Assembly: GCA_002733705.1 (NCBI GenBank)
Contig: NVWP01000037.1
Coordinates: 1-54,019 of the forward strand
DNA: 54,019 bases
Source of the DNA: Henriciella sp.
GTDB lineage: Bacteria; Pseudomonadota; Alphaproteobacteria; Caulobacterales; Hyphomonadaceae
Direction: 5' to 3'
Shown here: positions 38,106-53,624 of the stretch, piece by piece
Layout: the number at the start of each line of letters is the position of its first letter
Position numbering within the stretch: the first letter of the stretch is position 1
Made by a program: the position numbers and the translations under genes
The notes under the pieces: model-generated
Told to the model about the DNA's origin: nothing
Seen by the model: the letters and a program-made list of their open reading frames with translations, nothing else
The model's database searches: none

Positions 38106-38376
38106 GAAGCGACTCTTGTCGCTTGGCGTTGGTACACAAGCAGATCCCCAACATCGAAGAACGAAAGCTTGACCGAGATCATCGTCTAGTCTTCCGTACA
38201 GAGATGAAGGAGTTGGTAAGTCGACTTCCATCGCGAAGAAAGCGGCAAAAAGTATGCAGGAAGCGCCACGCGGCTTTGTCGGTGAACTGGAGAAATCCTG
38301 CAAATGAATCAAAGTGTCTTCGCTCGAAGATTTGTTAAAATGCAAAGAACCTGTTCTGCATAACGAAAGAGAAACC

Positions 38377-41300
38377 ATGTCTGTTCATTTGACGGCGCGA
38401 ATTGCTTGGCATGACAACGGTTGGGACGGCCGCATTTGCGAACACCCAGAACTGAACAGTTACTGTGTAGGATGCCAGTCCTACCCTGGCGATGTTATTG
38501 CCCGCGAGCGGCAAATTAATCAGGAAATGGCACATGCCGGAAAGCCGATTTTAGATTTAAAAAGTTCTGAGTTACCGCCCTGCGTCTATAGTGCCAACGC
38601 ATTCGGGCCGGACACAATACGTGGATATTCAAATCCACCCGACTTCTTTTTCGATGGCGCTAGCCGTGCGGAATGGGACATTCCTCCAGCAACAACATGT
38701 GTATGGCCATACGAGGCTATGTATAGCGAAGATGTCTACGAGAACGGGAAGCTGGACAACAACCGGCGCTCCGAGAACGCCGACGCATTCTTCGCAAGCA
38801 TTGAAGCTGCGAAGAGCTTGATCTTTTACTATGCGAACTATTCCAACCCCTTCAGCGAGGAAGAAAATCCTCGCTATGTGCTGGTCGGAGTTTCGCGGGT
38901 CAAGAACGTCTCCGATCGCCTGCTTTACGACGATGTGAGCGATGACATCAGCGAGAGATTTGCAGGAGGGATGATTTGGGGGCGCAACGTGACCTCACTA
39001 TACCCCGACGAAGGGTTGCGTCTCCCATATCATCTTTATCGAGATGACCCCGAGGCGCTCAATAAATTTGTGGTCTATCCGGACAATCCGCGGACTTGCA
39101 AGTATGGCGCTCGACTTCTAACCAACGATGACGCTATTGGACTGCTTGAGCAGTTTCTCGGATCCATCCGAGATTTGAGGGCTCTCGGCGATGAAAGCGA
39201 GAACTGGGACGAGCGGGAGCGCTGGATTCTTGGTTGCATTGCCGAGCTTTGGAACAAGCGCGGTTTGTACCCCGGTCTACTCAACGTCATGCGGTTTCTT
39301 GGAGCCGATCAGGCGACCGACCATGCCCGGCGTCTCATGGCAGAAGGTAAGTCAAAAGAAGCGCACAAGCTCTTCTTTGACGCTGTGGATCACAATGTCG
39401 AGGTGGCGCCTTATGGCCTCATGGGAAAACCGTTGTCCAAGCTGGCAAGGCAGTGGTTGCTGAAGCCGGACGATGCTAGGACCCTGCTCAGGGACGTGCT
39501 GCCACGGCTCGATCTGACTCTCGATCAGATCGAAAGGATTGTCAGCGAAGACGAACGCTTGCGGGCAGAGCATGGGCTGACAGGCGATTGCAGTTCCGCG
39601 GCGGAAAACCCCTACGTCCTCTCGGAGAGATATGTCGGCGATAGCCCCGACGACACCATTCCATGGGGGACGATTGATCGTGGGGTGCTGCCTTCGCCGG
39701 AACTTGGAGGCGAGCCTCTCGCGGACATGGAGTATGACGATGCGAGGCGCTTTCGGGCGCTTTGCGTGGAGCAGCTGAAAGGAGAGCCGAACCAGACCTT
39801 CAGGGCTGCGGATGGCATTCTTGCAGAAGTGAACGCGCGCCTGCAGAAGCTTCCCGAATGGAAGTCCGCACACTTCACGGCAAGATATTTCGAGGTCGAT
39901 CGCGCAACGCTTGAAGAAGCGCTGGTGTTGCGTGAGAAAGAAAACAGACTTTGGCTCTATCTGCAGGATGTCTATGACGATGAGAGAGACATTGAAGACG
40001 CACTAACAAAGCTGTCCGGGCGCGCTGACGTTCAGTTGCAGCGCCCGTTCTCCGAAAGCGATTGGCAGAATGAAATTCTGGACAAGAAAAGCTTTCTTCT
40101 CGCCAAAGCACGGGAGCTATATACGCAGGCGGTAACGGCTCAGGCAGAAGCCTGTGAAACAATCTTCCGCCGCCCACTGGCCGTCGTGACCGGCGCTGCT
40201 GGAACAGGAAAGACGACTGTCATTTGCGCGATCATACGGGCTGTCCGTCAGACCGAAGGAGACGGCGCGCCTGTTACTGTCATGGCACCAACCGGCAAAG
40301 CCTCGGACCGCGTCCGCGCAAAGCTTCATGAGCGCGGAATTGACCGCGTCGAAACCTCGACCGTCCACTCGTTTCTGGCCAAAGGCGGCTGGCTGAACAA
40401 CAACCTGACCTTCAGGCGAAGCGGAGGAAAGCGCGAGGGCGGCGGCACAATCATTGTGGACGAAGCCTCGATGCTTGACCTTGGGCTTTTGGCCAGCTTG
40501 GTTCGCGCAATAGATTGGCGACAGGTGCGCCGGTTCATCCTCGTTGGTGACCCCAATCAGCTTCCTCCTATCGGAAGAGGCCGGGTATTCGCGGATACGA
40601 TTGTCTGGCTCGACCGAAAGGACAACGGAAGTATTGCGCGTCTCGATCAGAATCTCCGGCAAATGGGGAATGCCATTTCGGGGCAAGGCACCGCCATACT
40701 AGACCTTGCTGACCTGTTCGTAGGTGCGTCGGCGCGTGAGGATGGAGACGCAACCTCACCGCGGGCTGAGGCCCTCCTATCCGCCGTTCACAAAGGCGGA
40801 AATGTCGATACAGACCTTCGCGTCATCTACTGGGACGACCCTGCAACGCTGGCAGACCGACTAATCAAAGAACTCGAAACAGATATGTCTACGCATACCG
40901 GCCAGGCATTGAATGAGGACAAGCCCTACGAACTCTGGCGAACTGCATTTGAGTGGATGCCGGAAAAATACCAAGTACTTACGCCGCACCGCGCAGAGCT
41001 TCATGGCGTTGAAGCTTTGAACGAAGCACTGCAGCAGCGGGTAGCAAGAGGGACGATGAATTGGTTTGGCGCTGTAGACGGTATCACGCTTTTTGACAAG
41101 GTGATCCAATATCGGAACAGGCCCAAGTCCAACCCGATCTGGGCGTACAACTTCAATACCCGAAAATCAGAGCGCTCAGAGATATTCAATGGTGAGATCG
41201 GCTTCGTGCAGAAGCATGGGTTTGACGCGAAGAAGAACCGGTTTCGAATGAAGCGGTTTCAGGTCAAGTTTGCGAGAAAGGATCACCTTGGATTTGCCTA

Positions 41301-41979
41301 TGGGCGCGATCTCCCAAAAGGCGGATCGGAAAGTGTGGAAAGCAACCTTGAGCTTGCCTATGCGATCTCAGTCCACAAAGCGCAAGGGAGCGAATTCCAG
41401 CATACCTATGTTTTGGTGCCGAAATCGAAAGCGCGCTCGCTATCATCTGAATTGATCTACACGGCGCTGACCCGCGCTACCAGACACTGTACCCTTCTCG
41501 TTCAGGGAGATATCTCGACTCTGTTATCGGCCAGGCGGCCTGAAAACACTCAGACTGCTTTGATCAACTCTTCGCTCTACGAGGGATACTTCCACGCCGT
41601 CCCAGACGAACTCGTCCACCGCAAGGACTGGTATGAAGAAGGAAAAATACATGAAGCGCTAAGTGGGGACATGGTCCGTTCGAAGTCTGAACTGATCATT
41701 GCGAACTTGCTTCACGAGCGTGGTGTCGCTTTTGAATATGAAACGCCATTGATCGCGCCCGACGGGACGATGTACCTTCCCGACTTCTCGGTGACTTGGA
41801 ACGGTGAGAAGTGGTATTGGGAACACTGGGGGATGATGTCATCGGAGAAATACGCAAAGCACCGGGACGAGAAAAAGTCTTGGTATGCAAAGCATTTCAA
41901 TGGAAAGCTTCTGGAGACTTTTGAGGGGCCCACTCTGAGTGCCGACGCAGCTCGGATTATAGATGGCCATTTCTTGTAG
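38377..41979 (+). CDS. Large helicase-nuclease: Cys N-terminus, RecD-like SF1 helicase, PD-(D/E)xK
   Basis: 1,200 residues from the ATG at 38377 (MSVHLTARIAWHDNGW). The N-terminus has ICEHPELNSYCVGCQSYPGD (Cys 21, 30 and 33) and a conserved-looking SLIFYYANYSNPFSEEENPR; about 600 residues precede the motor. The SF1 motor shows Walker A GAAGTGKT at 606-613, DEAS at about 695, GDPNQLPPIGRG at about 724, AYAISVHKAQGSEF and YTALTRATRHC, as in RecD-type enzymes. The C-terminus has a PD-(D/E)xK-type site: Glu1105 (RSKSEL), Pro-Asp1136-Phe and Glu1149 in WEHWG. Lone cargo gene with visibly lower GC than its neighbours. Likely DNA-targeting defence; the system name is unknown. Confidence 0.82.
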   Translation: MSVHLTARIAWHDNGWDGRICEHPELNSYCVGCQSYPGDVIARERQINQEMAHAGKPILDLKSSELPPCVYSANAFGPDTIRGYSNPPDFFFDGASRAEWDIPPATTCVWPYEAMYSEDVYENGKLDNNRRSENADAFFASIEAAKSLIFYYANYSNPFSEEENPRYVLVGVSRVKNVSDRLLYDDVSDDISERFAGGMIWGRNVTSLYPDEGLRLPYHLYRDDPEALNKFVVYPDNPRTCKYGARLLTNDDAIGLLEQFLGSIRDLRALGDESENWDERERWILGCIAELWNKRGLYPGLLNVMRFLGADQATDHARRLMAEGKSKEAHKLFFDAVDHNVEVAPYGLMGKPLSKLARQWLLKPDDARTLLRDVLPRLDLTLDQIERIVSEDERLRAEHGLTGDCSSAAENPYVLSERYVGDSPDDTIPWGTIDRGVLPSPELGGEPLADMEYDDARRFRALCVEQLKGEPNQTFRAADGILAEVNARLQKLPEWKSAHFTARYFEVDRATLEEALVLREKENRLWLYLQDVYDDERDIEDALTKLSGRADVQLQRPFSESDWQNEILDKKSFLLAKARELYTQAVTAQAEACETIFRRPLAVVTGAAGTGKTTVICAIIRAVRQTEGDGAPVTVMAPTGKASDRVRAKLHERGIDRVETSTVHSFLAKGGWLNNNLTFRRSGGKREGGGTIIVDEASMLDLGLLASLVRAIDWRQVRRFILVGDPNQLPPIGRGRVFADTIVWLDRKDNGSIARLDQNLRQMGNAISGQGTAILDLADLFVGASAREDGDATSPRAEALLSAVHKGGNVDTDLRVIYWDDPATLADRLIKELETDMSTHTGQALNEDKPYELWRTAFEWMPEKYQVLTPHRAELHGVEALNEALQQRVARGTMNWFGAVDGITLFDKVIQYRNRPKSNPIWAYNFNTRKSERSEIFNGEIGFVQKHGFDAKKNRFRMKRFQVKFARKDHLGFAYGRDLPKGGSESVESNLELAYAISVHKAQGSEFQHTYVLVPKSKARSLSSELIYTALTRATRHCTLLVQGDISTLLSARRPENTQTALINSSLYEGYFHAVPDELVHRKDWYEEGKIHEALSGDMVRSKSELIIANLLHERGVAFEYETPLIAPDGTMYLPDFSVTWNGEKWYWEHWGMMSSEKYAKHRDEKKSWYAKHFNGKLLETFEGPTLSADAARIIDGHFL

Positions 41980-41981
41980 GC

Positions 41982-42010
41982 TTGGGAAATACACAACCTT
42001 GGGGTATAAT
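41982..42010 (+). promoter_or_regulatory. Promoter for the small membrane protein
   Basis: TTGGGA (41982-41987), 17-bp spacer, perfect TATAAT (42005-42010), just after the helicase stop and about 98 bp before the membrane protein start. It restarts backbone transcription after the cargo. Confidence 0.55.
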
Positions 42011-42108
42011 CTTACGAGCAGAACCGGCGAAGCAGCATAGTCGCAGGCGGTGCGCACATTCGGGCAGCCTGTCGTGATCCCCTCAATCACCGACTACTGG
42101 AGGCGTCC

Positions 42109-42525
42109 ATGTCGCTTGTTCTGCTTGCCATCTCACTGTCCATCGCTCTTGGCGTGCTTGCCTTCCGCTTTGCGGTCTTCGCACTGCCGGTCATGGCCGG
42201 GATCGCCGCGTTCCTGCAGGTTCATGAGGGCGGTGCCGGTTTCGGCCTGTCCTTCCTCGCCGGGCTAGCGGGGGCTGCGGTGTCCGTCGCGCTCGTGATC
42301 GCCATTCTCGGTTTCGCTCGAAATCCCTTCTTGCGTCTCGGGGCGCTTGGCCTGTTTGCAGTGCCCGCTGCCGTGGCGGGATATGCTCTGGCCCATGCCG
42401 TCGCGAAACATGCGCTCGAGCCGGGCATCTTGCTGACGCTTCTCTGCAGCGGCTGCAGCGCGGTCGTCGCGGTTGCGGCGATGATCAACCTCAATGCGTT
42501 GGGGCAGGGGCTTCTCGACCCGTAG
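42109..42525 (+). CDS. Small integral membrane protein, unknown
   Basis: 138 residues, strongly hydrophobic: about four membrane segments can be seen (LVLLAISLSIALGVLAFRFA; a second near 48-68; LRLGALGLFAVPAAVAGYAL; LLTLLCSGCSAVVAVAAM). CSGC gives two Cys at a membrane face. ATG follows CTGGAGG at 6-7 bp. No family recognised. It sits between cargo and ssb and may be backbone; surface exclusion or transfer assembly are possible but unsupported. Confidence 0.7.
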   Translation: MSLVLLAISLSIALGVLAFRFAVFALPVMAGIAAFLQVHEGGAGFGLSFLAGLAGAAVSVALVIAILGFARNPFLRLGALGLFAVPAAVAGYALAHAVAKHALEPGILLTLLCSGCSAVVAVAAMINLNALGQGLLDP

Positions 42526-43083
42526 GCCTTGGTTGTCGTCGAACCTCGTCGCGTCGTCTCAGGGGCGGTTCTGAACTGTGTTGCAGAGCGGTCCTTGGGG
42601 GCCCGCAGGCCCGGGGCCCAGCAACATCCCTCTCTCACGGCAGAGCCTCTTACGCGTCGAACCCTTGTAGCAGGTGACGCGGCGACCGGCGCCGTATGGG
42701 TTTGGGGGTCCCTGCGGTCTTGGGACTTCGGATACGCGCAATGGTGGCAGGTATCAGGGTAATTGAGAGTGTCATCGCCGTTGGTTGCGCGATCTGCGGT
42801 CTGTGGTTGCCTTGAACGAGGATGATGGTTTTGCACTTGGTCCCCGTCCCCGCTCCCCCGAGAAGACCTGTCCCTCCTCCTGATTGATCCCCTAAGCCCG
42901 TCCGTCCGAGGCCGGCAACCCCGCGCGGCGGGACCCGTGTTGGCGTGTGCCACGCCTGCCCGCGCCACGTCCCGCCTTGGGGGTCGAGCGGACGCCGGAG
43001 CGTCCGTGCAGGCCACGTCCCGCGGTCTTTGACGGGCCTCATCGGAGGGACGGTCCCTCCGGATGAAGCAACGGAGACATATC
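42526..43083 (+). other. 558-bp noncoding region upstream of ssb
   Basis: No gene seen on either strand; the long antisense open frame here is GC-bias. Features: the direct repeat GCCACGTCCCGC at 42964-42975 and 43012-43023 (48 bp apart) flanking a perfect hairpin CGGACGC-CGGA-GCGTCCG (42989-43006). Size and structure fit a long leader or an origin (oriT or oriV), but no nick motif could be assigned. Confidence 0.45.
43043..43061 (+). promoter_or_regulatory. Perfect hairpin in the ssb leader
   Basis: CGGAGGGAC (43043-43051), one G, GTCCCTCCG (43053-43061); flanking TCATC and GATGA can extend the pairing with one bulge. It ends 22 bp before the ssb ATG, next to the GGAG ribosome site, so it may tune translation or act as an operator. 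Confidence 0.55.
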
Positions 43084-43485
43084 ATGCAGAACATCGTTAT
43101 CCTCGCCGGCAACATCGGCCAGACCCCCGAGACCCGCACCACCCAGGGCGGCACCTCGATCACCTCCTTCACCCTTGCCACCTCCCGCCCGCGCTATTCC
43201 GAAGGCCGGGTCGTCCGCGACGAGAACGGCTACCGCGTCCAGGACACCGAATGGCACCGCATCACCTGCTTCAACGGCCTCGGCAAAACGGTCCAGCAGT
43301 ATTGCGAGAAGGGGATGAAGCTCCTGGTCCGGGGTCGCATCCACTACACCAAGTGGACCGACGCCGCCGGGGTCGACCGCTACGGCTGCGAGATCATCGC
43401 CGAGACGGTCGACTTCCTGACCAAGGCCAAGCAGACCGAGGATGAGGAGCCCTCCTTCATCGACGATGAGGACGACCAGTCCTGA
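43084..43485 (+). CDS. ssb: Single-stranded DNA-binding protein
   Basis: 133 residues from the ATG at 43084 (MQNIVILAGNIGQTPETRTT). The OB fold is clear: ITSFTLATSRPRYSEGRVVR, DTEWHRITCFNGLGKTVQQY, MKLLVRGRIHYTKWTDAAGV and YGCEIIAETVDFLTKA. The tail is acidic (EDEEPSFIDDEDDQS) but lacks the usual terminal PF of chromosomal SSB, as in many element-encoded versions. It coats ssDNA during conjugation or replication. A long structured leader precedes and a strong terminator follows. Confidence 0.93.
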   Translation: MQNIVILAGNIGQTPETRTTQGGTSITSFTLATSRPRYSEGRVVRDENGYRVQDTEWHRITCFNGLGKTVQQYCEKGMKLLVRGRIHYTKWTDAAGVDRYGCEIIAETVDFLTKAKQTEDEEPSFIDDEDDQS

Positions 43486-43495
43486 CCCCGCAACG

Positions 43496-43523
43496 AAACC
43501 CGGCGGCGCGAGCCGCCGGGTTT
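43496..43523 (+). terminator. Rho-independent terminator after ssb
   Basis: AAACCCGGCGGC (43496-43507), loop GCGA, GCCGCCGGGTTT (43512-43523), starting 10 bp after the ssb stop. Confidence 0.88.
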
Positions 43524-43659
43524 CTCCGATGGCCCTGTCCGCCCCCGATCACAATTCGTATCATTCGGCGACATCCCGCCGCGCGCAGCGGCCGGATAGG
43601 CAGTGAGTCGCGCTTCGGTCAGCCCCCACGGGATCCCGCGCCCGAAACGCTCGCTGACC

Positions 43660-43755
43660 GTGATGATCACTGGCAAGCCACCGGAAATGCGACTAAAATA
43701 GTCGTAGTTCTGGCATGTGTGAATGGCCGGGTGGGAGGTGATCATCATGATCACC
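43660..43755. promoter_or_regulatory. Operators and promoter of the XRE regulator
   Basis: GTGATGATCAC (43660-43670) and GGTGATCA-TCA-TGATCACC (43737-43755) share inverted GTGAT/ATCAC half-sites. The second overlaps the ribosome site and start codon of the regulator. Between them, CGACTA-AAA-TAGTCG (43690-43704) is a third dyad over a possible -10 (TAAAAT, 43694-43699). The layout suggests autoregulation by the XRE protein. Confidence 0.55.
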
Positions 43756-43995
43756 GCCCGACAATCACGGGCCGCGCGCGCATTGCTGGGATGGACGCAG
43801 CAGGAGCTAGCAGATAAGGCCTTGGTATCACTGACCGCACTCAAAAGGCTCGAATCCGAGAAGGATCTTCGTGTCTACGAGTCGACAGAAGATCAGGTGC
43901 GCCGGGTGTTTGAGGATGCAGGGATCACCTTTCTGCGTTCGGACAAGGGTGAAGGCGTCTTGATCGATGTGACCAAGGCGGAAAAGGCCAAGTGA
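43747..43995 (+). CDS. XRE family regulator, QseC-like
   Basis: 82 residues from the ATG at 43747 (MITARQSRAARALLGWTQQ), preceded by GGGAGGTG. A single Cro/C1 HTH fills the protein: ALLGWTQQELADKALVSLTA, LKRLESEKDLRVYE; the tail GITFLRSDKGEGVLIDV is typical of short XRE regulators of mobile elements. By position just upstream of stand-alone and split DUF2285 genes, it corresponds to QseC of the ICEMlSymR7A switch, a regulator of qseM (homology by context). Palindromes over its own start suggest autoregulation. Confidence 0.82.
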   Translation: MITARQSRAARALLGWTQQELADKALVSLTALKRLESEKDLRVYESTEDQVRRVFEDAGITFLRSDKGEGVLIDVTKAEKAK

Positions 43996-44083
43996 TCGTA
44001 ATCGGTTGACGTGGCTTTCGGTGGCGCGCCTGTACGAAAAGGCAACTTCGGGAGGGGGGTCGTTTCTGCGATCCTGTAGGGAC

Positions 44084-44365
44084 ATGGCACAGGGCGAGAC
44101 GACATTTTTGGATGCGCCACCGGACAGCGATACGCTGACCGAGTATGACCGATCACACATGGTCCTCTACCTCCGCCTGTTCGATGCTGCCGAGGAAGGT
44201 GCCGATTGGCGGGAAGTGGTCGAAATCCTCTTCGGCCTCGATCCCAAGGCAGACCCCCAGCGCTGCAGGAGCGTCTATGATAGTCACCTCGCGCGGGCCC
44301 GCTGGATGACGGAGCACGGCTATCGGGAACTGCTTCGGCAGGGGGACGGCGGCCCGAATGGCTGA
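44084..44365 (+). CDS. Stand-alone DUF2285 protein, QseM-like antiactivator
   Basis: 93 residues from the ATG at 44084 (MAQGETTFLDAPPDSDTL). It consists of little more than a DUF2285 helix-turn-helix variant: HMVLYLRLFDAAEEGADWRE, VVEILFGLDPKADP, VYDSHLARARWMTEHGYREL. The protein is acidic at the N-terminus and has no DUF6499. In ICEMlSymR7A, QseM is such a lone DUF2285 protein and blocks the activator FseA by binding its DUF6499 domain. The gene order XRE, DUF2285, DUF6499-DUF2285 here supports the same role (inference from family and context). Confidence 0.78.
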   Translation: MAQGETTFLDAPPDSDTLTEYDRSHMVLYLRLFDAAEEGADWREVVEILFGLDPKADPQRCRSVYDSHLARARWMTEHGYRELLRQGDGGPNG

Positions 44366-44469
44366 GTCACGCCGAAACCCGCCGATACCGGCTGGGCCGG
44401 ACTCCTGAAAATCAATCAGTACGTGTATAGTTTCCGGCGTTTCAGAGATGTTGGCGAACGGGATTTGTC

Positions 44470-45235
44470 ATGCCGTCGGATCGGTCCGGCTGGCGTTCCA
44501 CGGCCGATTACGACTACGTCGAGCGCCTTGGCGCATCTGATCTGGCATGGGAATGGCTGCGCCGAAACAAGCACTACGCAAAGGACTACGCGACCCTCTC
44601 CAAGGCCGCACCGGACGACGCGTCTCTGAAGCAAGCGCTCCTCGACAAATGGGGGTTGCGATTTCGCGGCCGATCCCAACCTCCCGGCTCCAAAGGCCTG
44701 CGCACTCTGGGATCCCCGGATCGATCCCTCGGTGGTCGTGCTGCAGAAGGTTCCGAAGGTCCTGAGCGGTGCGGTGGAACCGACGATCCTGCCTGAAGGG
44801 ACGACCAGACGCGCCCAGGACGGCCTCCACCATCTTCTTGACGCTGGAGGGCAACGTCGCCTCCAGATTTTTCAAGAGGATCCGGACGCCAAGGCACTTG
44901 TGGCGATCGTCCCGCTTGATCAAGACGGCTTCGCCCGCCTCAATGCAATCTACAGGTTGCTCGCGCAGCTCCACGGCAGAAAGGTGCCTGTCGACAAACG
45001 CCTCACCCGCCAGAAGCGACTGCGTGCCAAACGCATGTTGCAGGCATATGACGGGCGCGTTGCCGGCGCGTCGCAGCGCGAGATAGCTGAAGTGGTCTTT
45101 CGGCTATCTCGGGTCAGCCGGGACGAGTGGCAAAGTGCGCCGGAGCGCTTCGCGGTCATGGCCTTGCTGCGCGATGCCCGAAAGATGGTTCAAGGTGGGT
45201 ACTGCACGCTACTGCGCTCGAGGCGCGTGTATTGA
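44470..45235 (+). CDS. Split DUF6499-DUF2285 activator (FseA-like), +1 frameshift
   Basis: Two frames encode one regulator. The first (ATG 44470) gives the DUF6499 domain: WRSTADYDYVERLGASDLAW, EWLRRNKHYAKDY, ALLDKWGLRF. At TTT-C-GCG (44662-44668) the protein continues only if the ribosome skips the C at 44665: then AADPNLPAPKACALWDPRID follows, with the DUF2285 domain (LQIFQEDPDAKALVAIVPLD, FARLNAIYRLLAQLHGR) to the stop at 45235, about 254 residues. Without the shift a 108-residue product ends at 44796. FseA of ICEMlSymR7A, which activates excision genes, is made by such programmed +1 frameshifting. UUU-C permits tRNA-Phe slippage to UUC. A one-base mutation is the alternative. Confidence 0.75.
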
Positions 45236-45420
45236 TGAAAACCCGAGCAGATTTCCCTGGGGCCGTGGTTTCCCCAGCGCTGAGCCGGAACGTCTTGCAG
45301 TGGCATCTATGGTCCGGCGCTGGTCTCACTGCCCCCTTGCGCAAGCCAGCCACGCGGCGCCGTGCGCATCGGCGGCGTTCGCAACGACTTCCCAAGCCTC
45401 TAGTCTATCATGCATCTGCT

Positions 45421-46950
45421 CTAGGAGATGGCTACTGGAAGGGTCAATGAAGGACGATAAGTTCGGTCTCGCGAGCCCTCGAAGTCATATTCATAGAGCC
45501 GAACACCTCCGAGCACTGGCGCCTGCTGACCTAGGAAAAATGTTAGCGCGTTTGGAGCTGCGATGAATAAGTGAACGCGAGCTTCATGTGACATTTCAAA
45601 CATCGCCGAACGCATGGCGTTCTTTGCGGCCTGAGCCAGCGCAAACGCATGCCGTCCAGCCGCGACAGAATGGTATCCTGCACCCGAAGAGGGGCCGAGG
45701 TTCAGCATCCGCCCGACAGCAGGCAAGTGGTCGTCCACATAGCTTCGGACATCTTTGGTGATGTCATGAGTGATACCCACTGCAACTGCAATATCAGGAG
45801 CGTCCGCGTTCAGAACTATGACTGACTGCTCCAGCCCCGGCCAGTTCGGATCCACCGGAACATCATCGGCGCTCCAGACATCTCGCCTCGGTGTTCTCTG
45901 CTCCAGCACTACGTGCCGGCCTGATTTCACATCGAGTATGCTCCCGGCAGCAAACGCCAAGGTCGTATGTGCGTCGAGAGCCAACCGTAGCTCGGGCCGA
46001 TCGCCTGCTGCATCCCGAAGAAACGCCGAGAGTTCTGGATAGAGCTTCGACGACCAATCAGTCTCGTCCTGAATGAACCGTTTGTCGAAGGCTGGCACCA
46101 GATTGAGAACACCGTCACATCGATCCTCAAGCCGATCAAAAGCGTGTTCGAATGACTTCACCCCATACACTTTCGGTCTCTCCGCGAGGCCGCTGAAAAG
46201 CCCCTCATCTTCGCAGATTGTTCTGAACACTTTTTCGTCAAACTCAACACGCCCTTGCGCCATCCACTGGAATGCCAAATCGTCGTAGAAGAAGACACTT
46301 TCGTGAGCAGGAACCCTGCGCAAACCAACCGATGCGAAGAGCATATCGAGCCAGCCACGGAGCTCTTCGAGCGTTCCCGATGTAGTGCCGAACGTTAATG
46401 TGTTGGCAAAAATACGCAGATCATGATCATCGATATCGAGGTGCTCTCTCCATAACTTACGGATCATCCCGGCTTTGCTATTGTCAGTTTTAGTGCCGAA
46501 CAGACGATCAAGATGAATGGACCCAGATCTCTGACTAATGAGCGGATTAAGGTTGTCGCCACGATCAAGATGCCAGTTCGTTACAAGTTTGAACTTGGCC
46601 CCCAAGCCATCAGGGGCGTTTGCTAGTTGAGCGTCACGTGCACGTTGCAGCAAAGACCGTGCGTTCGCATTGATAAACTCCGGATCAATCAAGTCGGCGT
46701 ATCCAAAGGTGCCAGGAGATGTATGCCATTTCGATTGAATGTGCTCTCGCCTTAGCGGCTGACCAGATGCGTCTTTCGGCTCTCGACCGGCTGCATACTC
46801 CGTCCAGACATCGTCGAAACTCTTCGGGCCGCTCTCAAAGCCGACACGGACGATGGGGCTCACCGGATCGAGCAACTGCGCTGCCCGGAGCCAAAATTGG
46901 CGGGCCTGGAAGGTATCGCCATCGCGTCGAACCGTAACTGCCTGAGTCAT
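45421..46950 (-). CDS. cap4: CBASS effector Cap4-like: nuclease domain plus SAVED
   Basis: 509 residues from the ATG at 46950; a GTG at 46956 is possible. The N-terminus (TFQARQFWLRAAQLL, Glu39, FDDVWTEY with Asp46-Asp47, HIQSKWH with Gln72 and Lys74) fits the D...QxK active site of DUF4297-type dsDNA nucleases of the PD-(D/E)xK fold. The C-terminal 200 residues match SAVED, which senses cyclic oligonucleotides: LALDAHTTLAFAAGSILDVK, VVLEQRTPRRDVWSADD, and EARVHLFIAAPNALTFFLGQ then RLYEYDFEG. Binding of the second messenger is expected to trigger DNA degradation and abortive infection. Last gene of the CBASS operon, 5 bp after cap6. Confidence 0.85.
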   Translation of the reverse strand: MTQAVTVRRDGDTFQARQFWLRAAQLLDPVSPIVRVGFESGPKSFDDVWTEYAAGREPKDASGQPLRREHIQSKWHTSPGTFGYADLIDPEFINANARSLLQRARDAQLANAPDGLGAKFKLVTNWHLDRGDNLNPLISQRSGSIHLDRLFGTKTDNSKAGMIRKLWREHLDIDDHDLRIFANTLTFGTTSGTLEELRGWLDMLFASVGLRRVPAHESVFFYDDLAFQWMAQGRVEFDEKVFRTICEDEGLFSGLAERPKVYGVKSFEHAFDRLEDRCDGVLNLVPAFDKRFIQDETDWSSKLYPELSAFLRDAAGDRPELRLALDAHTTLAFAAGSILDVKSGRHVVLEQRTPRRDVWSADDVPVDPNWPGLEQSVIVLNADAPDIAVAVGITHDITKDVRSYVDDHLPAVGRMLNLGPSSGAGYHSVAAGRHAFALAQAAKNAMRSAMFEMSHEARVHLFIAAPNALTFFLGQQAPVLGGVRLYEYDFEGSRDRTYRPSLTLPVAIS

Positions 46951-46955
46951 CGACA

Positions 46956-47903
46956 CTAATCAGTTCTTGCTGAAACGTCGCGGAAGGGCGGCGTCGGTTT
47001 CATTCCGCGCGCAATCTGGACCGCACGCGCACCATCCACCGGTCGCGACGGATATGCATCCAGAACGAGCGTTGGAATGAGCCGCTGCGTCAGATCGGAA
47101 AAGGTGAAACCGTATACCCTACCTTCCATTTCCCCTGTCGCGTCAACCAGCGCTCTTATTTGCTCCGGTGAAAGACCAAGGGGCTCGAGGCGCCTTGACA
47201 ATACGAAGTGTCGTTGAGCGTCGTCAGGACGTGAGAACTCGAGGATGTCGGCAGCGCGTCGGCGGACAGCCGGGTCGAGTGAATTCAATCGGTTCGTGCA
47301 CATGATGATGGCGGCCGGAACTTTGGCATTTGCGATTTGATCGACGCCTCTGATGAAAGCATTGACGCCTGCGCGGTCCTCATGGTGCATCTGGCTTGCC
47401 TCTCGTGATTGGGCCAATGCATCGGCCTCATCAACTAACAGGATAACAGCGCCGCGGCAGCGCCGATTGCCTGTCGTCAGCTTGCCTGCCTCCTGCAGAG
47501 TATAGTCGAACGCCGCTGAAATGAGCTGAGTCATTTCGCCGACGCGACCCTGGCCACGGGTCGACAAGCTTAGTGGTAAAAGCGTGATTTCGATCCTCTC
47601 TTGCCTAGCGACCGCATCGCCGATGGTTTCGGCAAGCTCGGTCTTGCCCGAACCGACATCGCCCGCAAGCACGACCAGAGGAGGCCTGCGTAGCACAGTA
47701 TCTAGAAGGGCATCTGCCCCCGGGTGATGGCGATTGGCCCAGTCAGTGAGACCCGTTGGATTGACCAATAGGCCGATGATTTTCGTCAGTCGGTCTTTCT
47801 GCTGATCGAGGCCAACCAGACGTGCGAGCCTCTCTTGCGGCTCAAAATCCGGATAAACAAGCCGACGGTCGAAAAGTTCATCAAGGGTTGGTGTAGTCTG
47901 CAT
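46956..47903 (-). CDS. cap6: CBASS TRIP13-like AAA+ ATPase
   Basis: 315 residues. AAA+ ATPase with Walker A GDVGSGKT (81-88), Walker B ILLVDEAD (154-161) and sensor region IIMCTNRLNSLDPAVRRRA (about 200-218). In type III CBASS the TRIP13-like ATPase (Cap6) remodels HORMA from its active closed state and so switches signalling off. The start overlaps the HORMA stop by one base (TGATG), so the proteins are made in fixed ratio. It is followed at 5 bp by the effector. Confidence 0.92.
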   Translation of the reverse strand: MQTTPTLDELFDRRLVYPDFEPQERLARLVGLDQQKDRLTKIIGLLVNPTGLTDWANRHHPGADALLDTVLRRPPLVVLAGDVGSGKTELAETIGDAVARQERIEITLLPLSLSTRGQGRVGEMTQLISAAFDYTLQEAGKLTTGNRRCRGAVILLVDEADALAQSREASQMHHEDRAGVNAFIRGVDQIANAKVPAAIIMCTNRLNSLDPAVRRRAADILEFSRPDDAQRHFVLSRRLEPLGLSPEQIRALVDATGEMEGRVYGFTFSDLTQRLIPTLVLDAYPSRPVDGARAVQIARGMKPTPPFRDVSARTD

Positions 47904-48415
47904 CAGAAGCTCCGCACGGTTGCACGTTCAAGGGCCCGCCCGCCGGAAGAGTAGGTTTTGTCGGTCGAGAGGTAGCCATTTACCGCCGGTTCGGCAGCAC
48001 CGGTTCTGACATACGGGAGGCCTCGTTCGAAGGCGTCGCGCTCAGCAGTGCTCAACTCGAACCACTTGGCGCTGTAGGTCAGATAGCTGTAGAAGGACGC
48101 GCCGGAGACATCAGCACCCGGACGGATCTTTCCCGGATCATCGTCGACCGATCCGCTGTAAAGGTCCTGCGCCGTGTATTTCAGCGTCGGTTCGATCCAG
48201 AGACCGTTGCGCTTGAACCCGTACCAGACGTAATTCAGATAGCCGGCCTTCATGAGCGCGATCGCCTCTGATTCATAGTCTGCGATTTGGCTGTCGCTGG
48301 GCGACCCATAGAAACGCTGCACGCGCTTGAGGTCTGTCGCCACTTTAGCCGCCATGTGACGCGCGTGCGTAACGGTGAAGGTGGAGCTTTCGGAAACTGT
48401 GAGACTGTATGACAT
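47903..48415 (-). CDS. cap7: CBASS HORMA-domain protein
   Basis: 170 residues. The N-terminus TFTVTHARHMAAKVATDLKR, then RFYGSPSDSQIADYE, YTAQDLYSGSVDDDPGKIRP and GADVSGASFYSYLTYSAKW closely match bacterial HORMA family 1 proteins of type III CBASS, known from E. coli and Pseudomonas. The C-terminal NGYLSTDKTYSSGGRALERA is the safety-belt-like region. Cap7 senses phage proteins, then binds and activates the CD-NTase; TRIP13 reverses this. 9 bp after the CD-NTase stop. Confidence 0.93.
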   Translation of the reverse strand: MSYSLTVSESSTFTVTHARHMAAKVATDLKRVQRFYGSPSDSQIADYESEAIALMKAGYLNYVWYGFKRNGLWIEPTLKYTAQDLYSGSVDDDPGKIRPGADVSGASFYSYLTYSAKWFELSTAERDAFERGLPYVRTGAAEPAVNGYLSTDKTYSSGGRALERATVRSF

Positions 48416-48424
48416 GCCGCTATC

Positions 48425-49390
48425 TCAAACCTGGAATGTTGAGCCGAAGACCTTCTGCCAGTAGGCGACGGTCAGCTGCTTTGTAGGGGCCGCCAGGGCG
48501 GCATCTATGGCATCGCCGGCATCAAGTGCGGCCTCCACGATCATGTCAACGTTGGACGGCGTATACAGGCGCGCGACATTGTTCTCAGCATTGACCGGGT
48601 CGATGATCTGCACTGGATGGCCGAGCGGCCCGACGCTGGACGGCGGGTAGTAGTCGGCGAACACTATACGCTCGCGCAAGTTGTTCCGCGCGATGTAGGT
48701 GAAGAATTGCTGAAGGGCTTCAGGGTAGTCGCTGAGATTGAGTCCATTGTCGCAGAGCTTGGCCATGATCATCTCGATCATGAATGACTTGAACCGAAAG
48801 TCGGGATTTTCGTTCTTGAGGCGGCGGGCCCAGAACTTCACGAGCCGCACGACCTGAGCGAAGTGTGTCTCCTGGGCCTTCTTACGTTTGGTCGCGAATT
48901 CGAGGTGCAGCGGAATGCTGGTCTTAAGGAAGGAGCCATCTTCCTGGCTCACGAGGTCGCCATACCACTGTGGATCACCGCTGTAGAGGATGGGAACGAT
49001 ATCGACGTCCAGCCCCGTCCCCTTGAAGGACACGGTTACCGAATAGGTCTGCGGCTGAACCTGGTCGGGCGAAAAATTAGGAAACGCCTTTCGCAAGCGT
49101 TCCGCGATATAGTTGAGTAGTTCTTCGATATCGCGAGGAGCGTCCGCTCCGCTGACGTAACAGGCGACATCGATGTCGTTCAGCGACCGAAGAGCGGTGC
49201 CTTTCGCCAGGCTACCGGACAGCAACATTTTCCGCAGCGTGAAGTTGGGATGTTCGTCGAGGTAGCCCTCAAGTTTCTCCCGAAGCCGACGAGCCTGGGC
49301 TCGGTACTCGTTCGCCTTTTCCTTCGGAAGGTTTACCCGATCCGTCGCAAACTGCTCGATTTCGCGGTGGCCTACATGATCTCTGCTCAT
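48425..49390 (-). CDS. CBASS CD-NTase (cyclic oligonucleotide synthase)
   Basis: 321 residues from the ATG at 49390 (MSRDHVGHREIEQFA), with AAAGG 7 bp upstream; the frame upstream is antisense shadow. Pol-beta-like nucleotidyltransferase core: GS at 59-60 (LLSGSLAKGTALRSLNDID), catalytic Asp72 and Asp74, and Asp130 in GLDVDIVPIL. The C-terminal helical part has LVKFWARRLK and MIEMIMAKLCDNG. With HORMA and TRIP13 partners it fits clades C or D, which make cyclic trinucleotides in characterised cases. First gene of the operon, divergent from capW. Confidence 0.93.
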   Translation of the reverse strand: MSRDHVGHREIEQFATDRVNLPKEKANEYRAQARRLREKLEGYLDEHPNFTLRKMLLSGSLAKGTALRSLNDIDVACYVSGADAPRDIEELLNYIAERLRKAFPNFSPDQVQPQTYSVTVSFKGTGLDVDIVPILYSGDPQWYGDLVSQEDGSFLKTSIPLHLEFATKRKKAQETHFAQVVRLVKFWARRLKNENPDFRFKSFMIEMIMAKLCDNGLNLSDYPEALQQFFTYIARNNLRERIVFADYYPPSSVGPLGHPVQIIDPVNAENNVARLYTPSNVDMIVEAALDAGDAIDAALAAPTKQLTVAYWQKVFGSTFQV

Positions 49391-49474
49391 CCTCCAGCCT
49401 TTCATGCTGCAGCATCTTTGTTTCGATCCGAGGCTCCTCCCGCCGACTCGCATCAACACTATTGAAACTATATG

Positions 49475-49491
49475 GGTATAGCTGCTATACC
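49475..49491. promoter_or_regulatory. CapW operator: GGTATAG-CTG-CTATACC
   Basis: A perfect 17-bp palindrome with 7-bp arms, in the 126-bp gap between the divergent CD-NTase gene and capW, 26 bp from the capW start. Its position and symmetry fit the binding site of the CapW dimer, which represses CBASS promoters until DNA damage or phage infection. Confidence 0.75.
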
Positions 49492-49516
49492 TGTCAAGAA
49501 CCGATAGGGGTAGACC

Positions 49517-50404
49517 ATGACTGACAACTTGCCACCTCCCGGCCGCAATCTCGCTCCTCGGTTTGAATTCATCGAGTGGCGTCTGTTCTGGGAGGGTCAT
49601 CTGAACCGAAGTGATCTCGAGGAGCGCTTTGGTATCTCCACGCCGCAAGCCTCCGTCGACCTTAGGAACTACCGGGAGGTTGCTGGCGACAACATTGAAT
49701 ACAATGCGACAGAGAGAAGGTTTGTTGCAACGAGTGGGATGAAGCCGCGCTTCCTGCGTGTCTCGGCTAACCGCCTACTGCTGCAACTACGGGCTTTGGT
49801 GAACGGCGTCGTGAAACGCGACGACCTCCCGTTCAGCGAACTGCCCAGCGTCGATGTTGCTCCAGAAATCGTTCGGGATGTGCGCGCCGCGGTCCTTCAA
49901 AAGATCCTGACTGCTATTCGGTTAAGGAAAGCCGTCTCCATTTACTACCGGTCCCTCACAAGCACGCGATGGCGCGATATCGCGCCGCATGCCTTGGCTT
50001 TCGACGGTCATCGCTGGCACGCGCGTGCATATTGCTGTGAGCGCAATGAGTTTCGCGATTTCGTCCTGACGCGGATCGAGCGATTGGGCGAACTAAAGCC
50101 AGCGCAATTCGACCCGGAGAATGACCTTGCTTGGCAAAACAAGATTGAACTTCTGTTGTGCCCTCATCCGGGCCTGAGTGAGGCACAGAGCGAAGCGGTC
50201 CAGTGCGACTACGATATGCGTGATGGGATACGCAGAATCGAGATGCGTCTGTCTTTGGCATATTATTTCATTAAGCGTCTGAACTTAGACATTGATATCC
50301 TCGAACCGGCTCGCGCCCAGATCTGTCTGGAAAATCTCTCTGAAGTCGAGGCTGCGATCGTCAAAGCGCGCGAGAAGTCTAAGAAACTATGCGCAGAGGC
50401 CTGA
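49517..50404 (+). CDS. capW: WYL-domain transcription regulator CapW
   Basis: 295 residues. The N-terminal winged HTH (RFEFIEWRLFWEGHLNRSDL, then EERFGISTPQASVDLRNYRE) is followed by a WYL domain at about 130-200 (SIYYRSLTSTRWRDIAPHAL, FDGHRWHARAYC, EFRDFVLTRIERL) and a C-terminal WCX region. This order matches CapW, the repressor of CBASS operons. It is divergent from the CD-NTase gene over a perfect palindrome. WYL domains may sense a nucleic-acid ligand released during infection. ATG at 49517. Confidence 0.88.
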   Translation: MTDNLPPPGRNLAPRFEFIEWRLFWEGHLNRSDLEERFGISTPQASVDLRNYREVAGDNIEYNATERRFVATSGMKPRFLRVSANRLLLQLRALVNGVVKRDDLPFSELPSVDVAPEIVRDVRAAVLQKILTAIRLRKAVSIYYRSLTSTRWRDIAPHALAFDGHRWHARAYCCERNEFRDFVLTRIERLGELKPAQFDPENDLAWQNKIELLLCPHPGLSEAQSEAVQCDYDMRDGIRRIEMRLSLAYYFIKRLNLDIDILEPARAQICLENLSEVEAAIVKAREKSKKLCAEA

Positions 50405-50598
50405 GAGTTTCATTGGCAGCTGCAGAAGCATCGGATTCTTAGTGCGTATTATTCTCGACAATACGTGCACAGCGGTGCTTGTGTATCTTTGAACGTGCGA
50501 TTTCGAAGATCGCGACGTAGTCACTAGCGTCTGCGGCAAAAATTAGCATTCCGCGCGACTCCACGGGTCTTACACCTAAAAACCAGCGCCACAAGCAT

Positions 50599-50641
50599 CC
50601 AAGGAAGGTCGGCACAAGTCCCGCCTTGGTCTAAGTTTTTT
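50599..50641 (+). terminator. Probable terminator after capW
   Basis: CCAAGG (50599-50604) and CCTTGG (50624-50629) with partial inner GC pairing are followed by a T-run at 50636-50641. The 195 bp between the capW stop and this hairpin show no gene. Confidence 0.55.
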
Positions 50642-50807
50642 GCATCGCCGCATCCTTAGCATATCGGCGATCGCCTCAAGCATACATCCTAGTGTGCGAT
50701 TTCTGCACCCCCATCTTCGCACTCCATCCCACCCATTTCACTTCGCCATCGTGGCCCCAATCAGCCGCCCTTACCCGGCGGCCTCACGGACCCCACGGAG
50801 GCCTTCC
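50642..50807 (+). promoter_or_regulatory. Control region upstream of the HTH_17 gene
   Basis: ATCGCCG (50644-50650) and CGGCGAT (50665-50671) are inverted with a 14-bp gap, and GGCGATCGCC (50666-50675) is a perfect palindrome. This is the natural place for the FseA-like activator to act on the excision/transfer operon (inference). GGAGG precedes the HTH gene start. Confidence 0.4.
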
Positions 50808-51092
50808 ATGCGACCGGATCACGCTCCCCTGCCGCCGCGCTATCTGCGCACTAAGGATGCCGCGCAGTTTCTCAGCCTGTCCGCGCGGACCCTTGAAAAG
50901 CACCGCACTTACGGCACCGGTCCGGCCTATCACAAGCTGGGTGGGCGGGTCGTCTATTCGATTGAGGATCTCGAAACCTGGGTCCAGCGCGGTGCCGTGA
51001 CCTCGACGTCCGATCCGCGCGGTGGCCGCGTGCTGCCCGCGAAGCGCCATGTGCTGACTGCGACCCCGCCTGCGGGCCGGGCTTTCCGCTGA
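50808..51092 (+). CDS. HTH_17 DNA-binding protein, possible excision factor
   Basis: 94 residues from the ATG at 50808 (MRPDHAPLPPRYLRTKDAAQ); upstream in-frame codons lack a ribosome site. A MerR-like HTH_17 domain is evident: YLRTKDAAQFLSLSARTLEK, HRTYGTGPAYHKLGGRVVYS, IEDLETWVQRGAV. Such small proteins include recombination directionality factors (RdfS, AlpA). Being first in the repA-traF operon, downstream of an FseA-like activator gene, it is a candidate RDF; a plain transcription factor is the alternative. Confidence 0.75.
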   Translation: MRPDHAPLPPRYLRTKDAAQFLSLSARTLEKHRTYGTGPAYHKLGGRVVYSIEDLETWVQRGAVTSTSDPRGGRVLPAKRHVLTATPPAGRAFR

Positions 51093-51111
51093 TCCGGTCG
51101 AGGCGTCCAAG

Positions 51112-52200
51112 ATGTCCCGCAGTACGTCAGAACGCGGCCAGCTCGATCTGTTTCACGCTCTCCCTGGCGAGTTCGCCGTGCGGGACGCGCAGGACCTCAT
51201 GTCTTATCCGTTTTTTTTCCTGTCCAAGAGCCATCGCACCCGGCCCATCGAGTTCGCGGCGGGCGGAGTCGAAATCCGCGTCGAGGCCGTGGCGGATCAC
51301 GGCATGGCCACGATCTGGGACGCCGATATCCTCATCTGGGCGGCCAGCCAGATCGTCGAGGCGCGCGATTCCGGATTGTGCACGTCGCGGCTCATGGCGG
51401 CGACGCCGTACCAGATCCTCACCTTCATCGGGCGTGGGACCTCGGCGCGGGATTATCGCCGGTTGAAAGCCGCGCTGGACCGGTTGCAGTCGACGACGGT
51501 CTGCACCTCGATCCGCCAGCCCGTCGAAGGGCGTCGTCACCGGTTCTCTTGGATCAACGAGTGGACGGAGCGGACCGATGCCACCGGTCGCCCCGACGGG
51601 ATCGAGTTGATCGTGCCGGACTGGTTCTACCGGGCTGTTCTCGATGACGCGCTGATCCTGACCATCGACCGTGCGTATTTCGACCTGACGGGCGGCGTCG
51701 ATCGCTGGCTCTATCGGCTCGTGCGCAAGCATGGCGGCCGCCAAAGGGGAGGGTGGCGGTTCGAGTTTCGGCACCTCCACGTCAAATCCGGCAGTCTTTC
51801 GCCCTTCAAACGCTTTGCCTTCGAGCTGCGGGACATCATCCGCCGCCAGCCATTGCCGGGCTATCGCCTGGCGCTCGAAGTCGAGGCGCGGGGGCGTCGA
51901 TTGCTCGCCTTCGAGCCCTGTGGACAAGCTGTGGATGGGCTCGTGCTATCGGGAACCCCCTGTATCGTGCCATCAGGAACCGGACCCTCGTGCTATCGGG
52001 AACCCGAACCTGGCTCATCCCCTTCAAATACTGGCAGAATTCGCGCCCGTAACTTTGAGTCTAACAAAGAATCTAACTCTTGTTGCGCTCAGCTCGCTGG
52101 GGACAAGTCCGCGGGCGCACGCGTTCAACCCCTCAAGTCGGGCCTTTGCGAGGACGTGCCTGAGCTGCCTCTCGGCACGTCGGGGAAGGCGACGATATGA
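51112..52200 (+). CDS. repA: Replication initiator protein A (RepA)
   Basis: 362 residues. RPA-type plasmid replication initiator: GQLDLFHALPGEFAVRDAQD, MSYPFFFLSKSHRTRPIEF, VRIEVEA-like VEIRVEAVADHGMATIWDAD, PYQILTFIGRGTSARDYRRL, LDRLQSTTV, and LTIDRAYFDLTGGVDRWLYR. The C-terminal 90 residues are low-complexity and encode three DNA repeats that look like iterons. It would allow replication of the excised element. ATGA overlap with the DUF2840 gene. Confidence 0.88.
   Translation: MSRSTSERGQLDLFHALPGEFAVRDAQDLMSYPFFFLSKSHRTRPIEFAAGGVEIRVEAVADHGMATIWDADILIWAASQIVEARDSGLCTSRLMAATPYQILTFIGRGTSARDYRRLKAALDRLQSTTVCTSIRQPVEGRRHRFSWINEWTERTDATGRPDGIELIVPDWFYRAVLDDALILTIDRAYFDLTGGVDRWLYRLVRKHGGRQRGGWRFEFRHLHVKSGSLSPFKRFAFELRDIIRRQPLPGYRLALEVEARGRRLLAFEPCGQAVDGLVLSGTPCIVPSGTGPSCYREPEPGSSPSNTGRIRARNFESNKESNSCCAQLAGDKSAGARVQPLKSGLCEDVPELPLGTSGKATI
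51941..52003. repeat. Three iteron-like repeats inside repA
   Basis: TCGTGCTATCGGGAAC at 51941-51956 and 51988-52003 and TCGTGCCATCAGGAAC at 51965-51980. Spacings are 24 and 23 bp, so the repeats are read in different frames and are conserved as DNA, not protein. They are candidate RepA-binding iterons, i.e. a replication origin within repA. Confidence 0.6.
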
Positions 52201-52715
52201 GCTCGTTCCGCACCGCACCGCGCCAGGTTGGTGCGAACAGCATTGGCAGAGACGATGATCTGACCTTGATCGAGCTGATCTGGAAAGAGGGCCAGATCGA
52301 GCAGTGGATTCGGTTCGGCCACCCGGTCAGCGAAGAGCACATCGATCAACTCCGGCGCTGCTTCGGCTTCCCGCCGGGCGCGATCTTCGGGGTTAATCGT
52401 TGGGCGGCCAACGCCTATGGCACGGTCCTCTCGCGCTTCGACATCCTGCGGGCCGCACGGCCCGGAATCCCCATGCAAACGCTGCCCTATCTGCGGACCG
52501 GAGGGACCTTGCTGCTCTCCACCCATGGCTGGCCCAAGGTCGAGCGCGTGTTGCAGGCTGTTGACGCCATCGAGGGGCTTGGCATCGATCCGGCGGATGC
52601 CTCGCCGGACTACTGGCGGCACCTGCACAATCGCTTGGCCTCCGCGCAGCCGGCCCATTTCTATACGCGGATGCAGCACCGAGCCTGGCTCAAGCGGCGG
52701 AGCTTCGGGCCATGA
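52197..52715 (+). CDS. DUF2840 family protein
   Basis: 172 residues. It matches DUF2840, found almost only between repA and traF in alphaproteobacterial conjugative elements: DLTLIELIWKEGQIEQWIRF, FGVNRWAANAYGTVLSRFDI, RAARPGIPMQTLPYLRTGG and HFYTRMQHRAWLKRR. Function unknown; constant linkage suggests a role in conjugation. It overlaps both neighbours by 4 bp (ATGA), so it is translationally coupled. Confidence 0.88.
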   Translation: MSSFRTAPRQVGANSIGRDDDLTLIELIWKEGQIEQWIRFGHPVSEEHIDQLRRCFGFPPGAIFGVNRWAANAYGTVLSRFDILRAARPGIPMQTLPYLRTGGTLLLSTHGWPKVERVLQAVDAIEGLGIDPADASPDYWRHLHNRLASAQPAHFYTRMQHRAWLKRRSFGP

Positions 52716-53302
52716 AAGCGCGGCACATCCTCGTCTGGGCGACAGCTCTGTCGGTCACTCTGACGGTCCTTCCCGGCGTCACGGCGTGGTCGCCCCGACT
52801 GATGTGGAATGCGAGTGCTAGTGTCCCGATCGGGCTTTATCGCCTCGATCCTGTCGATCACTTGGCTATCAGCGATTTGGTGGCCGTTCAGCCGCCACCG
52901 GCACTCTCGGATTTCCTCGAAGCGAGGGAATATCTGCCGCTCGGTGTGCCGTTGCTTAAGGATGTTGTCGCGCTGGAGGGCGCGTTGGTCTGCCGCTCTG
53001 GTGACAGGATCACCGTCGACCACCGCCTTCTAGGTCACGCCCATGCGCAGGACCGTAACGGCCGCGACTTGCCCATCTGGCACGGCTGTCACCGGCTCGG
53101 CGCCGGCGAAGTCTTTCTCATGAACCCGGATGCGCCCGACAGCCTGGACGGGCGGTATTTCGGCCCCTTGCCACGCACCGCGATCACCGCCCGGCTGACG
53201 CCGCTTTGGATCGTTTCCGACGGTGCCATCGCAGGGTCGGCGCATCCGGATCTCACACCGCACAACAACAGAAAGGAGGCACGCCATGCCCCAGATCGGT
53301 GA
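52712..53302 (+). CDS. traF: Conjugal signal peptidase TraF (S26 family)
   Basis: 196 residues. N-terminal membrane segment at about 7-25, then NASASVPIGLYRLD with the catalytic Ser37, and LLKDVVALEGALV with the general base Lys83; FLMNPDAPDSLDGRYFGPLP is a further S26C motif. TraF processes and cyclises conjugative pilin in the periplasm. It overlaps DUF2840 upstream and the DUF736 gene downstream (17 bp), within a conjugation operon. Confidence 0.9.
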   Translation: MKARHILVWATALSVTLTVLPGVTAWSPRLMWNASASVPIGLYRLDPVDHLAISDLVAVQPPPALSDFLEAREYLPLGVPLLKDVVALEGALVCRSGDRITVDHRLLGHAHAQDRNGRDLPIWHGCHRLGAGEVFLMNPDAPDSLDGRYFGPLPRTAITARLTPLWIVSDGAIAGSAHPDLTPHNNRKEARHAPDR

Positions 53303-53621: not shown

Positions 53622-53624
53622 GCG

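Follow-up and report, generated by a model that had tools for sequence, protein, structure and literature searches.

The closest described system is the transfer activator FseA (Msi172-Msi171) of ICEMlSymR7A, in which a DUF6499 and a DUF2285 domain are joined by a +1 shift beside a WGL/UGGGGG sequence (PMC10359603). In the model drawn for R7A, a low-frequency +1 shift yields FseA, FseA activates rdfS, and the lone DUF2285 protein QseM blocks FseA by way of DUF6499; QseM binds Msi172, and FseA residues 15-55 suffice for this (PMC10359603). The first-pass annotation had likened the gene studied here to FseA as a +1 frameshift product of the same two domains, a mode of synthesis that is both published and widespread, as PMC10359603 counts 4709 homologues, of which about 61% have a +1 site. 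Two further comparisons are RovC, a Yersinia T6SS regulator (PMC10359603), and prfB (RF2), where an internal Shine-Dalgarno-like G run three nucleotides from the slip, the pyrimidine tetramer CUUU and UGA in the A site accompany a +1 shift (PMC12421855).

Here we describe a gene in a window of 54,019 nucleotides, which is the whole of contig C11 in a 3.37 Mb draft genome of Henriciella sp. We read the gene, with a probability of roughly 0.92, as an FseA-type transfer activator of an integrative and conjugative element (ICE) that would be made by +1 frameshifting, whichever tRNA slips. By analogy, the gene set of the window fits the published R7A model, sharing with it the two domains, a lone DUF2285 gene as putative antiactivator and a presumed rdfS-traF target with a candidate inverted repeat (PMC10359603). 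It differs in gene order, which is traI2-msi172-msi171 in R7A (PMC5882170) and tandem XRE and QseM-like genes followed by fseA here, and, unlike in ICEMlSymR7A, a CBASS insert lies between fseA and rdfS. Neither the family nor the shift nor the antiactivator is new, and the window adds another member.

The split gene and its relatives

The gene is divided as follows.

44470–44664, + strand: DUF6499 part of fseA in the 0 frame, last residue Phe65 at UUU (PF20109, 80.1 bits; AWEWLRRN motif)
44662–44665, + strand: slip site UUU-C with skipped base C44665 (TTTC in 134 of 136 split loci, best matches listed)
44665–44796, + strand: 0-frame tail past the slip, unconserved (2 to 236 codons in the 136 split loci listed)
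44666–45235, + strand: DUF2285 part of fseA in the +1 frame, stop codon included (PF10074, 108 bits)

The two domain frames lie one base apart, as the first-pass annotation had claimed: the 0-frame ORF containing DUF6499 spans 44470–44796 (108 aa), and the +1 frame has 201 open codons, from 44630 to 45235, with its first start codon in the window at GTG 44732, 22 codons past the slip. The junction reads TGG GGG TTG CGA TTT C GCG GCC GAT, and a one-base skip gives a 254-residue protein with ...WGLRF-AADPNLP... across it. Skipping C44665 in TTT-C-GCG does restore LRF followed by AADPNLP, as had been proposed, and a U before UUC could equally well be the skipped base; since both skips yield the identical protein, the peptide LRF-AADP is uninformative on which base is skipped. 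The proposed FseA-like identity is borne out by both domain matches, that is, an N-terminal DUF6499 with an AWEFLRRN-type motif and a C-terminal, positively charged DUF2285 (PF10074, now named RovC_DNA-bd), and by the +1 site beside WGL/UGGGGG that is found in split members. As to the expectation that standard annotation would report a pseudogene or two hypothetical genes, 42 plasmid records of relatives matched and, of the 40 listed, 29 name a 'DUF6499 domain-containing protein', 10 lack any feature at this place and 1 record is unannotated. The window holds no tRNA genes, and an Rfam scan of 42000–54019 gave no match at gathering thresholds.

Relatives were sought with PF20109 in genomes sampled at four taxonomic ranks around the window genome, and matches were obtained in 54 of 105 genomes of the family (E up to 1e-3), 32 of 398 of the order (1e-13), 13 of 385 of the class (1e-13) and 29 of 398 of the phylum (1e-10). 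The loci compared are the top-scoring ones, namely the best 30 per PF20109 search together with the best 80 of 560 confirmed named loci, these 80 having been retrieved with the DUF6499 alignment. This gave 169 sequences (L001–L170 minus L001 and L005, both of which are the window, plus the window itself), of which 150 carry both domains. Left out of the 150 were 14 without the motif pattern, L148, which had no row, and L081, L085, L087 and L089, in which the motif is present and the DUF2285 match is absent from the scanned stretch.

Among these 150 best-matching loci, DUF2285 lies in the +1 frame relative to DUF6499 in 135, in frame in 14 and at +2 in 1, a proportion that is not a family-wide rate because the loci are the best-scoring matches of longer lists (PMC10359603 gives about 61%). 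This alignment of related loci, the check that the first-pass annotation had proposed, came out in its favour: a +1 break in 135 of 150 loci, with TTTC marking the junction of 134 of the 136 split ones (the 135 at +1 plus L069), among the best matches listed, is not the work of chance. The two exceptions to TTTC are L135, which reads UUUUUUC and so has UUU-C one codon later, and L056, which has UGUC where the others have UUUC. In L069, counted as +2, the slip site is followed further on, inside DUF2285, by another shift that is unexplained; L069 and L056 are possibly decaying copies.

Clustering at 80% identity left 75 split representatives, and a tree of 88 representatives (75 split, 13 in frame) requires 3 changes of the split/in-frame label, compared with 12.4 in shuffles. 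Twelve in-frame members cluster with three split ones (L059, L079 and L080), and the remaining in-frame member, L046, falls on the opposite side of the tree, together with the other 72 split representatives. Close relatives with one uninterrupted frame, which had been named as grounds for abandoning the frameshift, did not turn up, as L091–L104 are all split and L046 is more distant. This natural single-frame member reads WGLRFPVDPALP across the junction, in agreement with the meeting point predicted for the two halves.

The RNA signal at the slip site and the probable mode of shifting

Two elements precede the slip codon.

44650–44656, + strand: internal Shine-Dalgarno-like run UGGGGGU, spaced 6 nt from UUU and 3 nt from CGA downstream of it
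44659–44661, + strand: CGA codon preceding the slip codon (E site, with UUU in the P site)

Codon choice around the junction departs strongly from that in the rest of the same genes. In the split representatives the Phe codon at the slip is UUU in 74 of 74 (90/420 elsewhere), Leu near the slip is UUR in 55 of 71 (267/2158 elsewhere), Arg before the slip is CGA in 53 of 59 (220/2068 in the rest) and Gly near the slip is GGG in 52 of 67 (169/1146 elsewhere). At the same place the 14 in-frame homologues use UUU for 1 of 12 Phe, UUR for 1 of 14 Leu and GGG for 4 of 14 Gly. Where Gly is substituted the codon is AGG in 12 of 13 cases, on separate lineages of the tree, and GGAGG is preserved. Pairing with the anti-Shine-Dalgarno sequence has a mean duplex energy of -8.89 kcal/mol in the 75 split representatives, compared with a synonymous null of -5.70 (sd 0.16, 200 draws) and with -6.11 kcal/mol in the in-frame homologues. 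On these codon statistics, the excess of UUU, UUR, CGA and GGG together with the pairing shows selection acting on the RNA, and the full signal consensus would be UGGGGGUURCGAUUUC. Its parts are not equally constant, as CGA is missing in 22 of 75 split representatives and a GGG or AGG second codon in 15 of 75. This codon-level signal was not found in the main text of PMC10359603, which contains UGGGGG and lacks the string UUU.

A downstream RNA stimulator was considered and rejected, since folding of the 60 nt past the slip has a mean z of -0.01 in the 75 representatives, with 0.24 for the 40 nt past the slip and -0.28 for a control stretch further on. Folding of the 60 nt upstream of the slip has a mean z of -0.68, with 23% under -2. 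Nor is the site of the prfB type: the internal Shine-Dalgarno-like G run, the pyrimidine slip tetramer and the +1 direction are shared, whereas UGA in the A site, CUUU and a spacing of 3 nt (PMC12421855) are replaced here by CGC, UUUC and 6 nt. The slowness of CGC as the 0-frame A-site codon is not obvious, which we count against the main reading.

Given an FseA-type frameshift, we think it probable that the P-site tRNA-Phe slips on UUU and re-pairs with UUC, as the first-pass annotation had suggested. The same gene and the identical product would result if the shift occurred one codon earlier, with CGA in the P site and tRNA-Phe reading UUC out of frame, a non-slippage mode resembling that of Ty3. 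The 3 nt between the Shine-Dalgarno-like run and CGA equal the prfB spacing (PMC12421855), CGA is among the few codons that can replace GCG in Ty3 (PMC5009743), and the signal strongly prefers both CGA and UUR, the first U of which lengthens the Shine-Dalgarno pairing. A shift at CGA would, however, leave the skipped base after CGA free, yet this base is U in 75 of 75 split representatives, and UUUC is kept where CGA is replaced by CGC, AGC, CTG, TGC, TCC or CAT. Because the base that would be free in the out-of-frame mode is invariant, and because UUUC persists where CGA does not, P-site re-pairing is favoured and we regard the earlier shift as unlikely. CGA is read by an inosine tRNA.

Selection, the predicted joined product and other explanations of the break

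Both halves of the gene evolve under constraint, with dN/dS of 0.13-0.33 between the window and 11 close relatives (11 of 14; L102–L104 were excluded for a one-codon length difference, and L093 is shortened by its contig). In the 66 bases past the slip (12 loci, 66 pairs), pN/pS is 0.33 in the +1 frame, 2.46 in the 0 frame and 1.16 in the third frame, so that, to judge by these ratios, purifying selection past the slip is on the +1 frame and not on the 0 frame. These bases (44665–44730 for the 0 frame) can be reached in the window only by a shifted ribosome.

The joined product, predicted from an input alignment in which the relatives' halves were left unjoined, has a mean pLDDT of 92.1 and a pTM of 0.88. 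Its predicted fold is RovC/FseA-like: in a fold comparison, RovC (6xz5) is the sole PDB match under E 0.001 (6.9e-6), sharing the predicted fold over nearly the whole length of the product (248 alignment columns) at 18% identity. The second match is QseM (7uqt), at E 1.5 and a probability of 0.84; this weak structural match shares the DUF2285 HTH variant, and QseM differs from the FseA model in having neither DUF6499 nor a frameshift. A sequence search against PDB chains (query P0002) returned a chance match only (E 0.91).

These results bear on whether the locus might instead encode two separate proteins, with DUF2285 initiated at GTG 44732 or another start. From GTG 44732 a 167-aa ORF is open, lone DUF2285 proteins such as QseM exist, and 23 of 74 split representatives have a +1-frame start codon upstream of the slip. 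Against this, the +1 frame is conserved over the 22 codons that separate the slip from GTG 44732 and that lie out of reach in the window without a shift, L046 is a natural single-frame relative beside which 13 other in-frame homologues exist, and structure prediction gives the joined protein a single confident fold, so that we consider separate synthesis very improbable. We give next to no credence to a pseudogene or sequencing error, for which the frame break itself speaks and nothing else, given that the same-junction +1 break recurs in 135 of 150 listed loci, spread over 75 split clusters at 80% identity, and that both halves are under purifying selection. Transcriptional slippage that yields a corrected mRNA is just as implausible, as it has no specific support, the run is of three U only, and the conserved Shine-Dalgarno-like and codon signals point to ribosomes.

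Putative switch genes, presumed target operon and cargo of the element

Upstream of fseA lie the presumptive regulators of the switch.

43690–43704, no strand: palindrome CGACTAAAATAGTCG, candidate operator just upstream of the XRE gene
43723–43995, + strand: XRE/HTH_3 regulator, QseC-like by position (PF01381, 26.5 bits; start codon uncertain)
44084–44365, + strand: lone DUF2285 protein, putative QseM-like antiactivator (PF10074, 40.6 bits)

The first-pass annotation had taken these genes to complete a QseC-QseM-FseA switch, and both neighbours recur in related loci: where the flank is 1200 nt or longer, all 76 of 76 loci have a lone DUF2285 gene ahead of fseA, and 73 of the 76 also have an XRE gene there on the same strand, the other 3 showing weak opposite-strand matches only. 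The equation of the XRE gene with QseC stands by position only. The product of 44084–44365 would be the acidic partner by charge and position, with a net charge of -8 vs +12 for the FseA DUF2285 domain. Ahead of the XRE homologue, 48 of 74 loci have GACTA-N2-4-TAGTC with exact half-sites, and GTAGTTCTGG follows the palindrome in 14 of the 18 upstream regions listed; the palindrome is likely, on this recurrence, to be an operator. In R7A, quorum sensing acts on the switch through TraR/TraI, a trait that is not known to be required of FseA family members; here a search for PF00765 (LuxI family) found no match in the genome, and control genomes were equally silent.

The presumed target lies further downstream.

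50695–50721, no strand: FseA-box-like inverted repeat TGCGA-N17-TCGCA upstream of rdfS, candidate
50764–50782, + strand: conserved hairpin in the rdfS leader, with covariation over 42 sequences
50808–51092, + strand: rdfS-like gene, HTH_17 excisionase (PF12728, 36.4 bits), presumed FseA target
51112–53621, + strand: presumed target operon of RPA-type replication initiator, DUF2840, S26 peptidase (TraF-like) and DUF736 (PF10134, PF11000, PF10502, PF05284)

In 72 of 80 loci fseA is followed on the same strand by an rdfS-like gene, at a distance of 123-186 nt in 60 of the 72 and of 0.9-5.6 kb in 12, the window included; in 6 of the other 8 loci the contig ends in less than 2.7 kb, and in L099 and L103 it continues for 7.4 kb. 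The genes after rdfS are similar to the R7A operon rdfS, traF, msi107 (PMC5882170). The inverted repeat before rdfS could be aligned in 50 non-redundant upstream regions, with half-sites that vary, and exact TGCGA/TCGCA half-sites are present in 11 of 48 rdfS upstream regions examined; as a pattern alone, TGCGA-N17-TCGCA is not significant, with 0.91 chance matches expected in the window. The repeat lies 87-113 nt upstream of the rdfS ATG, further away than the published hexamer at 62-67 (PMC10359603).

The hairpin begins 44 nt before the rdfS start codon, with 89.5% of cells paired over 42 loci (alignment A3) and 5 of 7 pairs changed on both sides. Its covariation score was reached by 0 of 500 shuffles; of the five measures in this shuffle test, four were matched by no shuffle and one, further pair types, by 49 of 500. 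RNAalifold on the entire rdfS upstream alignment gave no useful structure, the hairpin having been tested on a shorter alignment. This covarying hairpin may be either a leader RNA element or a DNA repeat.

Taken in order, the proposed events are as follows. Ribosomes that stay in the 0 frame would produce DUF6499 with a short tail ending at 44796. A minority, the low rate being taken from R7A, would slip +1 at UUU-C as the P-site tRNA-Phe moves from UUU to UUC, aided by the internal Shine-Dalgarno-like UGGGGGU and the E-site CGA, with no downstream RNA structure. The resulting 254-residue RovC/FseA-like product would bind the inverted repeat upstream of rdfS and turn on the rdfS-to-traF operon, whereupon excision and transfer would begin. 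The QseM-like lone DUF2285 protein would bind DUF6499 and block the activator, and the XRE gene, behind its own palindrome, would set expression of the switch.

The interval between fseA and rdfS, at 45421–50404 in the window, holds defence genes in 9 of 12 inserts of the window and its relatives, two of these being judged by DNA identity. The window insert contains a CBASS cyclase with HORMA, TRIP13 and a SAVED-nuclease, plus a WYL-domain gene, and that of L098 is 95% identical DNA. Other inserts carry another CBASS cyclase (L091), Gabija GajA/GajB (L092), Hachiman HamB (L094), two Thoeris-like TIR proteins resembling ThsB (L102), HEC-02 (L104) and RmrA (L097, with 94% identical DNA in L100); one L122 protein had no match, and L107 and L111 were outside the scan. 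On this gene content, the interval is a slot for many different defence systems in this lineage, and a literature search at the level of titles and listings did not find it described.

A 1221-aa helicase-like ORF (38314–41979, judged by eye) also lies in the element. TrbI and a relaxase domain are found on other contigs of the same genome (G000:C57:239-769 and G000:C56:14053-14265), and a search of the draft genome for VirB4 (PF03135) gave no match. Because VirB4 was not found though TrbI and a relaxase domain are present, the element may be incomplete or unassembled, with conjugation genes that may be interrupted by the ends of contigs or in part absent.

A more speculative use of the frameshift would be as a ratio device and not just a brake, in which a more abundant 0-frame DUF6499 module serves as a decoy for QseM and the frequency of shifting determines how much decoy is made per activator. 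We hold this to be doubtful, although it would fit a 0-frame product that is a complete DUF6499 module in the predicted structure (the last predicted helix ends at residue 61 and the slip is at residue 65), with a tail that can vary freely or stop after 2 codons. Neither a decoy nor titration is mentioned in the main text of PMC10359603. If this idea were true, the decoy/activator ratio would set the threshold at which the element fires.

The locus adds a further alphaproteobacterial element with a well-supported frameshift switch of the FseA type. Codon statistics define its RNA signal as an internal Shine-Dalgarno-like run, a preference for CGA and, almost without exception, UUU-C at a sense codon, with no downstream structure, and a signal so defined becomes searchable and testable. 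The defence slot between the activator and its presumed target links transfer control with the turnover of cargo.
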